A DNA stretch of 64,000 nucleotides from Gemmatimonadaceae bacterium (GTDB lineage: Bacteria > Gemmatimonadota > Gemmatimonadetes > Gemmatimonadales > Gemmatimonadaceae), in contig JADZDM010000005.1 of assembly GCA_020851035.1 (NCBI GenBank), positions 1 to 64,000 of the forward strand, given 5' to 3'. Positions within the stretch are counted from its first letter, which is position 1, and each line of letters begins with the position of its first letter. The position numbers were made by a program, and so were the translations under genes. Under the pieces are notes generated by a model. The model did not search any database. It was not told the origin of the DNA and saw only the letters and a list, made by a program, of their open reading frames with translations. Positions 121-62,299 of this stretch are shown one piece after another.

Positions 121-328
121 AAGGCGCAAAGGGCGCGAAGGACGCAAAGAAGAGCATGATGAATGAGGCCCCGGTGCGCGGAGTAATCCTCCATGCGCAT
201 CGGGGCCTCGTCATTGCTTTGGGAACGGCAACTGCCACCGCAGTTCCCCTCAGAATCGTCGCTCATCGAGCGCCTGACGCTCGCCCGCGGCACCGACCTC
301 TTTGCGTCCTTCGCGCCCTTTGCGCCTT
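121..328 (+). repeat. Structured interspersed repeat, copy 1
   Basis: The element is bounded by a perfect 30-bp inverted repeat: 121-150 is the reverse complement of 299-328. Inside it are two further hairpins. Hairpin A (165-209) has arms starting GAGGCCCCG and ending CGGGGCCTC, with a G-T wobble position. Hairpin B (221-248) has GGGAAC pairing with GTTCCC. A second copy lies in inverted orientation at 20801-21004. By eye about 81 of 87 bases match over the two hairpins (165-251 against 20875-20961). The right arm ends five bases before the stop codon of the PP2C gene. No reading frame in it looks coding. It could be a MITE-like mobile element or a structured RNA/terminator element; no target duplication is obvious. 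Confidence 0.8.
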
Positions 329-332
329 CGCG

Positions 333-1232
333 TCAGAGCTTCTGCTGTTCGGAAGGCGTAGACGCCTGTCGAGGGCGCCCGATGACGATCGTGATGTTGT
401 CGGTCCCGCCCGCGTCGAGCGCATCCTGCAGCAGCGCCTCGCACGCCTGCTTCGCGGACGTCATGGTGCGCAGCCGCTCGGCAATGCGCTCGTCGGACAC
501 GTGCTTGGTGAGCCCGTCGCTGCAGAGCAGGCCGACCTGGTCCCACACCTGCTCGAAACGCGTGATCACCGGCGCGGCTTCCTCGCCGCCGATCGCGCTC
601 GAGAGCACGTGCGACAGCGGCGACCGCAGCGCCTGCGTCTCCGTCAGCACGCCGGCGTCCACCAGGTCCTGCACCACCGTCTGGTCGCGCGAGATCTGGC
701 GCAGCACACCCTCGCGCAGGATGTAGCAACGGCTGTCACCCACCTGGAGCAGGTAGGCGTGCGGCCACACACCCAGCCACAGGGTCATCGTCGTGGCCAT
801 GCCACGGGCGTCCGGGTCGCCGCTCGCGCGCTCGCGCGCCACCTCCTCGTGCACCCGCATCACCGCCGTGTTCAGCGCCTGCCCGAGGTCGTTCAGGTCC
901 GCCTCGTCCGAACGGTAGAAGCACTTCGAGCAGGCCGAGACGTAGTGCAGGATCCGCTCGACCGCGTGCCGGCTCGCCTCACCCCCCATCACGCTGCTGC
1001 CCACCCCGTCGGCCACCACCGCCAGCAGCGCCATCCGGTCGCTGCTCGACTTCGCGTCCGAGGCCGGGAGGCTCGTCTGCAGCACCGACACCTCGCGCCG
1101 CAGCGACGAGATCAGGAAGTGGTCCTGGTTCTCGCTGCGCACGTTCCCCGTGTGCGTCACCCCGTGGACGTCGATCTCCGAGTCCAGCGGCTTGCGCTGC
1201 ACCGGAGCCTGCGTGGCGGACTCGGCGCTCAT
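333..1232 (-). CDS. PP2C-family serine/threonine protein phosphatase
   Basis: A 299-residue soluble Mn/Mg-dependent phosphatase that would remove phosphate from Ser/Thr of target proteins, counteracting Hanks-type kinases. The family motifs occur in order: RSENQDHF near residue 34, VADGVG near 73, GDSRCY near 160, SDGLT near 238 and GTDNITIV near 275, which together supply the metal-binding aspartates. The length is typical of the bacterial stand-alone family and there is no signal peptide or membrane segment. A 'YRSDEADLNDLGQALN' region replaces the usual loop after the second motif. No kinase gene is adjacent. The stop codon lies just outside the inverted arm of the structured repeat, so the transcript 3' end probably runs into the repeat. 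Confidence 0.9.
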   Translation of the reverse strand: MSAESATQAPVQRKPLDSEIDVHGVTHTGNVRSENQDHFLISSLRREVSVLQTSLPASDAKSSSDRMALLAVVADGVGSSVMGGEASRHAVERILHYVSACSKCFYRSDEADLNDLGQALNTAVMRVHEEVARERASGDPDARGMATTMTLWLGVWPHAYLLQVGDSRCYILREGVLRQISRDQTVVQDLVDAGVLTETQALRSPLSHVLSSAIGGEEAAPVITRFEQVWDQVGLLCSDGLTKHVSDERIAERLRTMTSAKQACEALLQDALDAGGTDNITIVIGRPRQASTPSEQQKL

Positions 1233-4073: not shown

Positions 4074-4311
4074 CCGGCGCGGGCGGCGGCGCCACGTTCA
4101 GCACCCGTCCCTTCACCACGTCGAACCCTGCCTCGTCGATCGCCGCCTCGGCCGCGGCCAGCGCCCCGCTCCCCGCCTCGAACGCCACCGCCGCCGCACC
4201 GATCTCCACCGTCTCCACCTGCAGCCCCGGGACCTCGCCCAGCGCCTTCTGCACCGCCGAGACGCAGTGCGCGCAGCTCATGCCCGAGATGCGGATCGTC
4301 GCCGTTTCCAT
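4066..4311 (-). CDS. copZ: Heavy-metal-associated domain protein, CopZ-like copper chaperone
   Basis: An 81-residue cytosolic protein that is one HMA domain. Family members carry Cu(I) by the two cysteines of the MxCxxC loop and hand it to CopA and CsoR. The motif GMSCAHC lies at residues 10-16. The frame is open for 62 codons further upstream, but that extension encodes the tandem leader repeat and is not HMA-like, so I chose the ATG preceded by GGGAG. The gene overlaps copA by 8 bp. The tail VAPPPAPDA is a short flexible end. Confidence 0.85.
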
Positions 4312-4437
4312 GTCTCCCTCCCGTGTCAGCCTGACTCTGTCCCCTTTGCCACCATCCGACTCAGAGTCACTCGCACGCATGTCTCCCTCCCATGTCGGCC
4401 TGACTCTGTCCCCTTTGCCCCCATCCGACTCAGAGTC
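4310..4437 (-). repeat. Tandem 59-bp repeat in the copZ leader
   Basis: Two near-identical 59-bp units lie at 4310-4368 and 4379-4437, separated by 10 bp (69-bp period, three mismatches by eye). Each contains an inverted pair TGACTCTG/CAGAGTC(A) (4332-4339 with 4362-4369; 4401-4408 with 4431-4437), so the leader of the copper operon would carry two identical hairpins. The last bases of the first unit supply the copZ ribosome-binding site. The GACTCTGTCCCC core resembles REP-type elements found in many genomes. Confidence 0.75.
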
Positions 4438-19029: not shown

Positions 19030-20771
19030 CCGTCATGCGTGTCCCTGCCGCACTGCGACCACTCCTGCTGCTCACGCTCGTCGCCGCCTGCGCGCGCCGC
19101 ACTCCCGCACCGGCGCCCATGCCGGCGCCGGCGGTTCCGCCTCCTGTGGCCGCGCCAGTGCCGTCCGAGCGACCACGGACGCCGACCCCCACGCCCGCGG
19201 TGCCCGGCGAGGTGATGGTCGATCCGCGCCGCACCAATCCGGTGGTCGAGGGTGGGGCGCCACGCGGCGCCACCTCGCTCCCCGCCCCGCCGGCCGTGGC
19301 GCGCGAGTTCCGCGCCGCGTGGGTCGCCACGGTCGACAACATCGACTGGCCCTCCCGCCGCGACCTCACCACCGCGCAGGCACAGGCCGAGCTGATCGCG
19401 ATCCTCGACCGCACGAAGCAGCTCGGCATGAACGCGCTCGTCTTCCAGGTCCGGCCGGCCGCCGATGCGATCTATCCATCCACGCTCGAGCCCTGGTCGG
19501 CATACCTCACCGGGGCACAGGGCCGCGCGCCATCGCCGGCGTGGGACCCGCTCGCCTTCGTGGTCCGCGAAGCGCACGCGCGCGGAATCGAGCTGCACGC
19601 CTGGTTCAATCCGTACCGCGCCCGTCACCCCAGTGACCGGTCACCGCTCGATCCGACCCACATCGCCGCCGCCCGCGCGCCGCTGGTGAAGCGGTATGGC
19701 TCGTACCTCTGGATGGACCCGGGCGAGCCGGCCGTGATCGAGAAGTCGGTGGCCGTGATCGTGGATGTCGTGCGCCGCTACGACGTGGATGGCGTGCACA
19801 TCGACGACTACTTCTACCCATACAAGGAACGGGACGCCCGCGGCGCGCTGATCCCGTTCCCCGACGACGCGAGCTACGGGGCCTACACGGCGCGCGGCGG
19901 CAGCATGGAGCGCGACGACTGGCGCCGCGCCAACGTGGACAGCTTCGTGCGCCGGATGTACGTGCGCGTGAAGGCCGCCAAGCCGTGGGTGAAGGTCGGC
20001 ATCAGCCCGTTCGGCATCTGGCGGCCCGGCTATCCCGCCGACGTGCGCGGCTACGACAGCTACGCCGAGCTGTACGGCGACTCGCGCAAGTGGCTGCGCG
20101 AGGGCTGGCTCGACTATGCTTCGCCGCAGCTCTACTGGCCGATCGCGAAGGCGGGCCAGCCGTATGGTTCCCTGCTCGCCTGGTGGGCGTCGGAGAACGT
20201 GAAGAACCGCCACATGTGGCCGGGCAACTACACCAGCCGCGTTGGGCGCGCCGCCGTGTGGACCGCCGATGAGCTGATCAACCAGATCGCCGTCACGCGA
20301 CGCCAGGGCAATGCGACAGGCAACGTGCACTTCAGCATGTCGGTGTTCATGCCGAAGGGTGCCGACACCGCACGCGCCGAGCGCGAGCTGCTCGCCACGC
20401 GGCTGATGACCGAGGCCTACCGGCTGCCGGCACTGGTGCCGGCGTCGCCGTGGCTCACCGGCAGCGAGGGCGCCCCCGCCGTCGCCACCGTGCGCGAGGA
20501 GCGCGACGCCCGCACCGGCGCGACGTTCATCATCGCGAACACGCCGCCGACACAGGTGGCCCGCACCTGGGTCATCGCCCGCTGGGACGGCCGCAACTGG
20601 ACCAGCGAGCTCCGCCCGGCGGACGCCGGTCCGCTCACCCTCGCCGTCGCCGCCAACGCCGGCGAGGGCATCGGCTACTGGATCAGCTGGATCAACCGCG
20701 CCGGCGTCGAGAGCCCGCGCGCCGGCTGGCTGCGCACCTCCGACAACGTCGCCCGCGTCATCGCACCCTGA
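19026..20771 (+). CDS. GHL10-family glycoside hydrolase-like lipoprotein
   Basis: A 581-residue protein with a lipoprotein signal (LVAAC), a Pro/Ala-rich linker to about residue 85, and a catalytic-type (beta/alpha)8 domain beginning EFRAAWVATVDNIDWPS. Conserved blocks of the GHL10 (DUF187) family follow: LGMNALVFQVRPAADAIYPS, GIELHAWFNPYR, YDVDGVHIDDYFYP, VGISPFGIWRPGYP and LDYASPQLYWPI. A small C-terminal beta domain ends the protein. Characterised relatives of this family cleave peptidoglycan glycan strands or other polysaccharides; the substrate here is unknown. Its stop is 30 bp before the second structured repeat. Confidence 0.85.
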   Translation: MTVMRVPAALRPLLLLTLVAACARRTPAPAPMPAPAVPPPVAAPVPSERPRTPTPTPAVPGEVMVDPRRTNPVVEGGAPRGATSLPAPPAVAREFRAAWVATVDNIDWPSRRDLTTAQAQAELIAILDRTKQLGMNALVFQVRPAADAIYPSTLEPWSAYLTGAQGRAPSPAWDPLAFVVREAHARGIELHAWFNPYRARHPSDRSPLDPTHIAAARAPLVKRYGSYLWMDPGEPAVIEKSVAVIVDVVRRYDVDGVHIDDYFYPYKERDARGALIPFPDDASYGAYTARGGSMERDDWRRANVDSFVRRMYVRVKAAKPWVKVGISPFGIWRPGYPADVRGYDSYAELYGDSRKWLREGWLDYASPQLYWPIAKAGQPYGSLLAWWASENVKNRHMWPGNYTSRVGRAAVWTADELINQIAVTRRQGNATGNVHFSMSVFMPKGADTARAERELLATRLMTEAYRLPALVPASPWLTGSEGAPAVATVREERDARTGATFIIANTPPTQVARTWVIARWDGRNWTSELRPADAGPLTLAVAANAGEGIGYWISWINRAGVESPRAGWLRTSDNVARVIAP

Positions 20772-20800
20772 CCTGCAACGCCAACTGCAACAGCTTCAAC

Positions 20801-21004
20801 GCGCACAGGGCGCGAAGGACGCAAAGGGGTCTGCGTGACAGCCGGGCGTCGTGTGCTCGATGAGCGAAGTAGTTGAGGGGAACTGCGGTTGCGGTTGCAG
20901 TTCCCAAAGCAATGACGAGGCCCCGATGCGCATGGAGGAATGCTCCACGCACCGGGGCCTCGTTCGTCGCCCACTGCTTTGCGTCCTTCGCGCTCTTTGC
21001 GCCT
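20801..21004 (-). repeat. Structured interspersed repeat, copy 2 (inverted)
   Basis: Reverse-complement copy of the element at 121-328. The outer arms are 20801-20826 and 20977-21002 (24 of 26 positions pair). Hairpin A spans 20917-20961 and hairpin B 20877-20905, the latter with a perfect 9-bp stem GGGAACTGC/GCAGTTCCC. It fills the 267-bp gap between the convergent GHL10 and RNase D genes. The inner hairpin block is almost unchanged between copies while the segment between hairpin B and the outer arm is diverged, arguing that the hairpins matter. Confidence 0.8.
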
Positions 21005-21038
21005 TTGCGTCACGCCGTTGCTGTGGCCGAACAGCGCC

Positions 21039-35261: not shown

Positions 35262-35549
35262 TCAGTGGTTGGTCGCGGCGGGCGTCGCGCGGCGGGCGCT
35301 CACCCAGGGCAGCGTCGGGGCGGTGTTCACGTCGGCCCAGGGCAGTGTCGGGGCGGCGTTCACGTCGGCCCAGGGCAGCGTCGGCGCGGAGTTCACGTCC
35401 ACCCAGGGCAGCGTCGGCGCACGGCCCGTGGTGTCGCCGTCGGCGTTGAAGTCGGCGATGGGCGAGGTCGGGCCATTGGCACATGCTGCGAGGCCGGCGG
35501 TGAGCAGCGTGATCGCTGCGACAGTCATGCGGTGGCGGATCGTCGTCAT
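35262..35549 (-). CDS. Small repeat lipoprotein with four APTLPW motifs
   Basis: A 95-residue protein. The signal peptide MTTIRHRMTVAAITLLTAGLAAC ends in a lipobox (LAAC), so the mature protein would be about 70 residues attached to a membrane. Most of it is four copies of APTLPW followed by a VDVN/ADVN-type stretch, 11 residues each (APTLPWVDVNS, APTLPWADVNA, APTLPWADVNT, APTLPWVSARR). I know of no family. It is divergent from the receiver-like AraC regulator, with 38 bp between starts, and convergent with the TPR gene. It could be a repeat-type structural peptide or a precursor; see findings. Confidence 0.7.
   Translation of the reverse strand: MTTIRHRMTVAAITLLTAGLAACANGPTSPIADFNADGDTTGRAPTLPWVDVNSAPTLPWADVNAAPTLPWADVNTAPTLPWVSARRATPAATNH
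35303..35434 (-). repeat. Four 33-bp tandem repeats
   Basis: The unit start CCCAGGGCAG recurs at 35303, 35336, 35369 and 35402, an exact 33-bp spacing (11 codons). The repeats are near-identical and encode the APTLPW motif of the small lipoprotein; the fourth diverges after about 20 bp. Silent changes between copies are few, which suggests recent duplication or conversion. Confidence 0.85.
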
Positions 35550-61765: not shown

Positions 61766-62140
61766 TCAGCTCAGGTGCTTGGACACCAGTGCCGTCATCT
61801 CGAACATGGTGACCGACTTCTTGCCACCGAACACGGCCTTGAGCTTGTCGTCGGCCAGGATGTTTCGCTTGTTCTTGGGGTCCTGCAGGTTGTGCTTCTT
61901 GATGTAGGCCCAGATGGCGCTGGTCACTTCGGTGCGCGGACGCGCATCACCGCCGATCACGGCGGCGAGCTCCGGGCTCACCTTCATGGCCTTGTTGAAC
62001 GCAGACGCGGACTTCTTCGCGGCAGGCGCCTTCTTGGCGGCGGCCTTCTTGGCCGGTGCCTTGGCGGCAGGGGCCTTCGCCGGAGCCTTGGCGGCAGCCT
62101 TCTTGGCCGGGGCCTTGGCGGCCTTCTTGGCAGGGGGCAT
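61766..62140 (-). CDS. SWIB-domain protein with lysine/alanine-rich tail
   Basis: A 124-residue protein. Residues 1-45 are a Lys/Ala/Pro repeat (AKKAAAKAPAK-type) like the tails of histone H1 and bacterial HU-like basic proteins. Residues about 50-124 are a SWIB domain: FNKAMKVSPELAAVIGGDARPRTEVTSAIWAYIKKHNLQDPKNKRNILADDKLKAVFG. SWIB proteins occur in chlamydial and other bacterial nucleoids. The combination suggests a DNA-compacting protein. Transcription probably starts in the 160-bp gap before it. Confidence 0.9.
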   Translation of the reverse strand: MPPAKKAAKAPAKKAAAKAPAKAPAAKAPAKKAAAKKAPAAKKSASAFNKAMKVSPELAAVIGGDARPRTEVTSAIWAYIKKHNLQDPKNKRNILADDKLKAVFGGKKSVTMFEMTALVSKHLS

Positions 62141-62299
62141 CGCAGATCCTCGAGATTGAGGGAGAGGCGAGCGACGCTCGCCATGTCGTGGAGCGAGACT
62201 CGCACGCTCATCCTGGCCCGCGCCGGCGACCGCCGGGCGCTGGGACCATGACGCGCGGGAAGGTACACATAGGGTCCCCGGGCGCAACAGGAGCCGTCA

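Follow-up and report, generated by a model that had tools for sequence, protein, structure and literature searches.

Dispersed palindromes at convergent gene ends in a Gemmatimonadaceae genome and their association with GxxExxY nuclease genes

At one end of a 64,000-nucleotide stretch of DNA from a Gemmatimonadaceae bacterium (the window, by which we mean the whole stretch analysed), a segment with inverted outer arms and two hairpins is found next to the 3' end of a gene, and it recurs in inverted orientation some 20 kb away. This raises the question of whether such a structure serves the genes that it adjoins, as a small RNA or a 3'-end structure, or whether it is a mobile element. Our preferred reading, to which we give a probability of about 0.55, is that the element is a non-coding foldback or MITE-like mobile palindrome located mainly in gaps between convergent gene 3' ends, and that it is a non-coding derivative within a class of palindromes associated with GxxExxY genes.

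Two window copies and the genomic family

The two window copies, at 121-328 on the plus strand and 20798-21005 on the minus strand, are 84% complementary over 208 nt, and both fold far more stably than shuffled sequences (z = −13.8 for copy 1 and −10.2 for copy 2). The left arm of copy 1 (121-150, plus strand) consists of the 9-nt periodic units CGCAAAGGG-CGCGAAGGA-CGCAAAG and pairs with the right arm (299-328) at 30 of 30 positions, while the arms of copy 2 form an imperfect inverted repeat (82% over 38 nt). Between the arms of copy 1 lie hairpin A (163-211), a G+C-rich, exchangeable module, and hairpin B (221-248), which reads GGGAAC(G/T)GC..GCAGTTCCC and is common to most copies. In copy 2, pairing places the 3' and 5' arms of the minus strand at 20798-20826 and 20977-21005, respectively, and the fold together with copy comparison places hairpin B at 20877-20905 and hairpin A at 20915-20963. 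Neither copy contains an open reading frame or has coding capacity.

These results bear out the original prediction with respect to the inverted recurrence and the perfect 30-bp arms of copy 1, but the limits that it gave for the arms are too short, since the arms run on to a (GGCATCnT)nAACNGC terminus. Copy 2 accordingly spans about 20789-21019, from AACAGC to GCCGTT on the minus strand, filling the gap between the convergent genes for GHL10 and RNase D (stops near 20771 and 21039, respectively), and copy 1 extends rightward to GCTGTTC at about position 350 (121-350, plus strand). The left limit given for copy 1 coincides with an assembly junction: positions 1-127, which we place outside the element, match without a difference the 127 bases with which another contig of this assembly, C26, begins. 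The match is a k-mer overlap of the kind usual at contig ends, so neither the left flank nor the outer left arm of copy 1 can be trusted. Beyond the 127-base overlap, C26 runs into a different subfamily of the same palindromic element.

The prediction described a two-copy element and proposed a search of the full genome, and sequence searches of this genome (one draft assembly of 4.97 Mb in 34 contigs) recovered at least 62 copies. An arm 17-mer with up to two mismatches occurs 110 times, versus 3 times for a control. The copies are 120-290 nt long, with inverted arms of 45-50 nt that are built of a 9-nt unit (..ACGCAAAGGCGCAAAGGGCGCGAAGGACGCAAAG) and start with the (GGCATCnT)nAACNGC motif, the consensus end being (GGCATC[GCT]T)GAACNGCTTTGACGCAAAGGCGCAAAGGGCGCGAAGGACGCAAAG, mirrored on the opposite side. 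Hairpin B is present in most copies (GGGAACTGC..GCAGTTCCC), module A differs in sequence among subfamilies, and a second subfamily carries a CGGCCTGCGGCCGCC insert in its arms. The copy number, the 9-nt periodicity, the outer termini and the link to a nuclease described below were all absent from the earlier description. No match at the Rfam gathering score was found at the six loci scanned.

Seven full-length copies at unrelated sites are about 81-84% alike over 208 nt, the non-repetitive hairpin A included. Both hairpins are kept in all seven, and the sequence separating hairpin B from the right arm has diverged, as had been noticed from the two window copies. The likeness at unrelated sites requires copying between sites, which makes it barely credible, and the least probable of the readings considered here, that slippage and fold-back template switching built the arms at each site with no movement at all, even though 9-nt and 6-nt tandem units have expanded symmetrically on both arms, concentric layers occur and the arms are matched within copies. 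Such in-place growth may nevertheless shape the arms after insertion. In the main subfamily, the two arms of one copy resemble each other more closely than arms taken from different copies do (z = 7.7), a pattern that fits pairing or co-inheritance.

The dispersed copies have unrelated flanks and inverted terminal repeats, as expected of MITEs, and sequence conservation fades about 9 nt beyond AACNGC. No transposase gene lies between paired arms in the copies read, in an assembly of 34 contigs where some copies sit at contig ends. The proposed check for target-site duplications returned none: there is no excess at k = 2-8 and offsets 0-25 among 48 copies. The suggestion of a MITE-like element thus holds for the many dispersed, non-coding copies with unrelated flanks and inverted termini and for the failure to find the family in two genomes of the same genus (see below), but not for target-site duplication, and a classical transposase-MITE relationship is not shown.

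Insertion between convergent genes

With respect to location, neighbours were called with a simple codon-usage gene caller, and 58 copies had two called neighbours. The neighbours are convergent for 40 of these, co-directional for 17 and divergent for 1, with 11 of 64 neighbour pairs in the window being convergent as a baseline, which strongly supports the 3'-end location reported for the two window copies. Of the 95 facing gene 3' ends found up to 120 nt away, 91 have their stop no more than 60 nt from the arm core. At convergent sites, a median of 28 nt remains outside the element, and the convergent gaps in the window that lack an element, 10 of the 11, are short as well (0, 9, 13, 15, 27, 36, 53, 87, 123 and 126 nt; median about 31). 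Because the residual gap beside elements equals the element-free gap, we read the elements as clean insertions into normal-sized gaps that add their own length, and not as obligatory terminators. All copies read adjoin protein genes, and no rRNA match was found at the six loci scanned.

The extreme bias toward convergent 3' ends, together with the very stable fold and the closely matched arms within copies, would also be expected of a bidirectional 3'-end hairpin with a host function, ending transcription or protecting the 3' ends of both convergent mRNAs, one that ectopic recombination has multiplied and selection maintains. We consider this unlikely. Neither window copy has the G+C hairpin followed by a U tract of an intrinsic terminator, so that a canonical terminator, one form of the 3'-end structure suggested earlier, is not supported; the 10 element-free gaps indicate that the element is not needed; and matched arms can equally reflect sub-lineages. 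Two genomes of the same genus bear on both sides of this question. The window family was not found in either of them, which counts against a host function, and palindromes of other sequence are present at their orthologous sites, which counts in its favour.

These orthologous sites hold different palindromes, nested ones, or none (four nested inverted repeats at L175, three at L177 and none at L170), and at the GHL10/RNase D site of copy 2 both relatives carry unrelated palindromes. The relatives' palindromes have the same build with other units and are often concentric. At five loci (L175, L177, L302, L314 and L326), we observe Russian-doll palindromes, with arm layers of different 9-nt units around one central hairpin. 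This concentric nesting is a striking feature, and any mechanism must account for it.

Dispersed palindromes by convergent gene ends are also typical of REPs, which show a strong bias to convergent 3' ends, within 20 bp of both open reading frames, and are defined as stem-loops of 20-40 nt with a GTAG or CGTC tag (PMC3733652). The convergent bias itself is therefore already known. This genome encodes three Y1 transposases, and one could consider a REP/REPIN-type element that a RAYT (Y1) transposase mobilises. We regard it as very unlikely, since the window family consists of elements of 120-290 nt with periodic arms and not of short tagged stems, and the Y1 loci (L091-L093) show isolated short matches only. 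A RAYT link was rejected because none of the three loci is flanked by the 9-nt arms. The two systems are alike in their dispersed palindromes, their 3'-end bias and a candidate mobiliser gene between or beside copies, but the gene associated with the elements described here encodes a PD-(D/E)XK nuclease instead of a Y1 transposase.

Arms shared with GxxExxY genes

This genome has four GxxExxY genes, and every one of them lies inside or beside such a palindrome. Two of these GxxExxY elements, L031 and L034, share the extreme terminus GGCATCGTnAAC, and GGCATCNTNAAC is found at 11 of 122 non-coding family ends as well as at the ends of two of the genome's own GxxExxY elements, and does not occur in the window at all (0 in 128 kb, both strands counted). 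The exact arm sequence of the window family occurs at none of the four genes. We propose to recognise members of the class by inverted arms of 8-9-nt CRCNRAG-type units, by termini that recur in a GxxExxY element of that genome, and by a GxxExxY gene or descent from one; the window family shows the first two. It resembles the GxxExxY (PDDEXK_3; TIGR04256, PF13366) elements in arm units and, in this genome, in terminal bases, and differs from them in that the window copies carry no open reading frame.

The association extends well beyond this genome. In a set spanning some twenty phyla, assigned by record titles, 53 of 73 GxxExxY genes are bracketed by inward CRCNRAG-N1-3-CRCNRAG arms within 250 bp, compared with 0 for shuffled, 0 of 58 for distal and 4 for reversed-order controls; since the same arms occur at unrelated loci, a control with mismatched flanks was too strict, and these three took its place. 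Within the phylum, inverted repeats that span the locus and exceed the shuffle maximum are found at 21 of 33 GxxExxY loci versus 1 of 29 other loci, and the neighbours of the GxxExxY loci are convergent in 16 of 33 cases and divergent in 2. S23-type genes (PF05635) of the same phylum have CRCNRAG-type arms in 0 of 30 cases and inverted arms of other short units in 24 of 30, indicating that arm unit and protein family go together. At these S23/four-helix-bundle genes (L271-L300), the unit of the inverted arrays is often 7 nt long, GGTGTCA or GGAGTCA.

Genomes rich in arm units make up 13 of 38 with GxxExxY versus 1 of 83 without (p = 6e-7), and the association persists when stratified by family (p = 4.6e-4); these tests correct for phylogeny only in part. 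In one genus (g19), the GxxExxY genome alone is rich in arm units. Many GxxExxY genomes are nevertheless poor in them, the correlation between arm type and nuclease sequence is weak (r = 0.11, p = 0.04), and one genome of the phylum set, G057, shows 46 net matches to the arm unit (CACGGAGGG) without any TIGR04256 hit, for which another mobiliser or a lost nuclease is possible.

Two further genomes connect non-coding palindromes to coding elements. G099 has only one GxxExxY element, and its dispersed non-coding palindromes carry that element's arms. They form nested layers around a G+C-rich hairpin and, in all four placeable cases, lie between convergent genes. In G067, repeats of about 300 bp at six or more sites combine these arms and a GGGGGAACTGC motif with no more of GxxExxY than its first ~28 codons, and are internal-deletion derivatives. 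Truncated derivatives of this kind were seen in G067 and not in the genome of the window. The G067 repeats (L331-L337) have their CACGGAG-type arms inside an extra 15-bp terminal repeat, GTAGTGGGTCAGTTT, with target duplications of 7-9 bp, features suggesting that an IS transposase may be responsible for their dispersal.

This IS-like arrangement, together with the multiple non-coding copies, inverted termini and species-restricted burst of the window family, would suit an origin as a classical MITE whose ordinary DDE transposase was lost from the assembly or falls in one of its gaps. We judge that origin quite improbable: the 48 copies show no duplication of any length or at any tested offset, their arms are periodic, their termini vary (AACNGC), and the G067-type terminal repeat is absent from every segment of the window's own genome that was read.

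The GxxExxY protein (PF13366) was modelled with AlphaFold2 from 40 sequences (pLDDT 93.5), giving a PD-(D/E)XK fold with D75, E85, K87 and Q99 invariant. No GxxExxY homologue was found in the PDB by sequence, and fold searches returned generic PD-(D/E)XK relatives. The best of these is a Cas4-like nuclease (Z 9.7); Hjc resolvase scores 6.8, and many other solved folds, Holliday junction resolvases among them, lie at Z 5-7. These matches are too weak for a substrate to be assigned from structure, and no paper stating a function for GxxExxY was found in the open literature searched.

A proposed mechanism and related systems

What the comparison shows is a dispersed family of palindromic insertions with high turnover at gene 3' ends, alike in build and termini to GxxExxY elements. 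In the mobile palindrome that we prefer, the arms are short arrays of the 9-nt unit that pair together, with hairpin B and the variable module A filling the loop. It would insert into the short gap past stop codons, chiefly between convergent genes, leaving no visible target duplication, and would be tolerated there. Coding members of the class would carry one small gene, for the GxxExxY PD-(D/E)XK nuclease, between arms of the same kind, and the non-coding copies would be derivatives of such elements, mobilised in trans. Copying of the element may start when the nuclease nicks or cuts DNA at the arms, at a cruciform or at a hairpin in the target, by a logic like that of homing or of REP-RAYT systems; that the nuclease drives the spread is what we infer from the association. 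A preference for hairpins as target sites is attractive, if unproven, and would explain both the 3'-end sites and the nesting, recalling the intervening sequences (IVS) in rRNA helices (PMC4990558). Mobility is read here from copies in one draft genome and from orthologous sites in two genomes of the same genus.

More tentatively, we suggest the possibility of a previously undescribed, phylum-spanning class of selfish DNA, in which palindromes with short-tandem-repeat arms invade hairpins at 3' ends as well as the centres of one another and owe their copying to the one-domain PD-(D/E)XK nuclease GxxExxY. A sister class would carry S23 four-helix-bundle proteins and different arm units, and the window element would be a non-autonomous member. 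This would place S23/IVS elements in a wider frame and account for one type of repeat found where genes converge. The GxxExxY nuclease family is widespread, and the characteristic inverted array that flanks its genes on both sides also occurs at dispersed sites that lack the gene; the arm link gives the family a testable role in the mobility of palindromic elements.

Arms with an open reading frame are already known from the IVS of 23S rRNA, where a small frame lies in stable-stem inverted arms and a selfish element in a hairpin has been proposed (PMC4990558). The elements described here share the small frame between stem-forming arms but differ in that the frame is GxxExxY (not S23/four-helix-bundle) or absent, the arm unit is 8-9 nt, and the sites are intergenic 3' ends and not rRNA. 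MITEs and ERIC-type intergenic palindromes are likewise non-coding, multi-copy and intergenic with inverted termini, but the window family lacks target-site duplication and its arms are short tandem arrays. Eukaryotic Foldback (FB) transposons have long inverted arms of short tandem sub-repeats, a build that the window family shares, although it is bacterial, far smaller and without homology to them. In the open-access literature (most subscription journals lie outside this scope), no paper on these arms, the GxxExxY link or the nesting was found. The sole bacterial match by arm sequence is a primer at a Bacteroides invertible promoter: the PCR primers for this Bacteroides fragilis promoter include CTCTGTGTTCTCTGTGGTG, an arm unit of this kind (PMC3090145).

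The window also contains other repeats. At 4309-4437, two 60-nt direct repeats starting with CATGTCTCCCTCCC are 95% identical and 69 nt apart, a 33-bp tandem repeat is present three times at 35303-35420, and 27-bp tandem repeats (CTTGGCGGCGGCCTTCTTGGCCGG..) at 62033-62143 probably encode a Lys/Ala-rich repeat within a minus-strand coding region.
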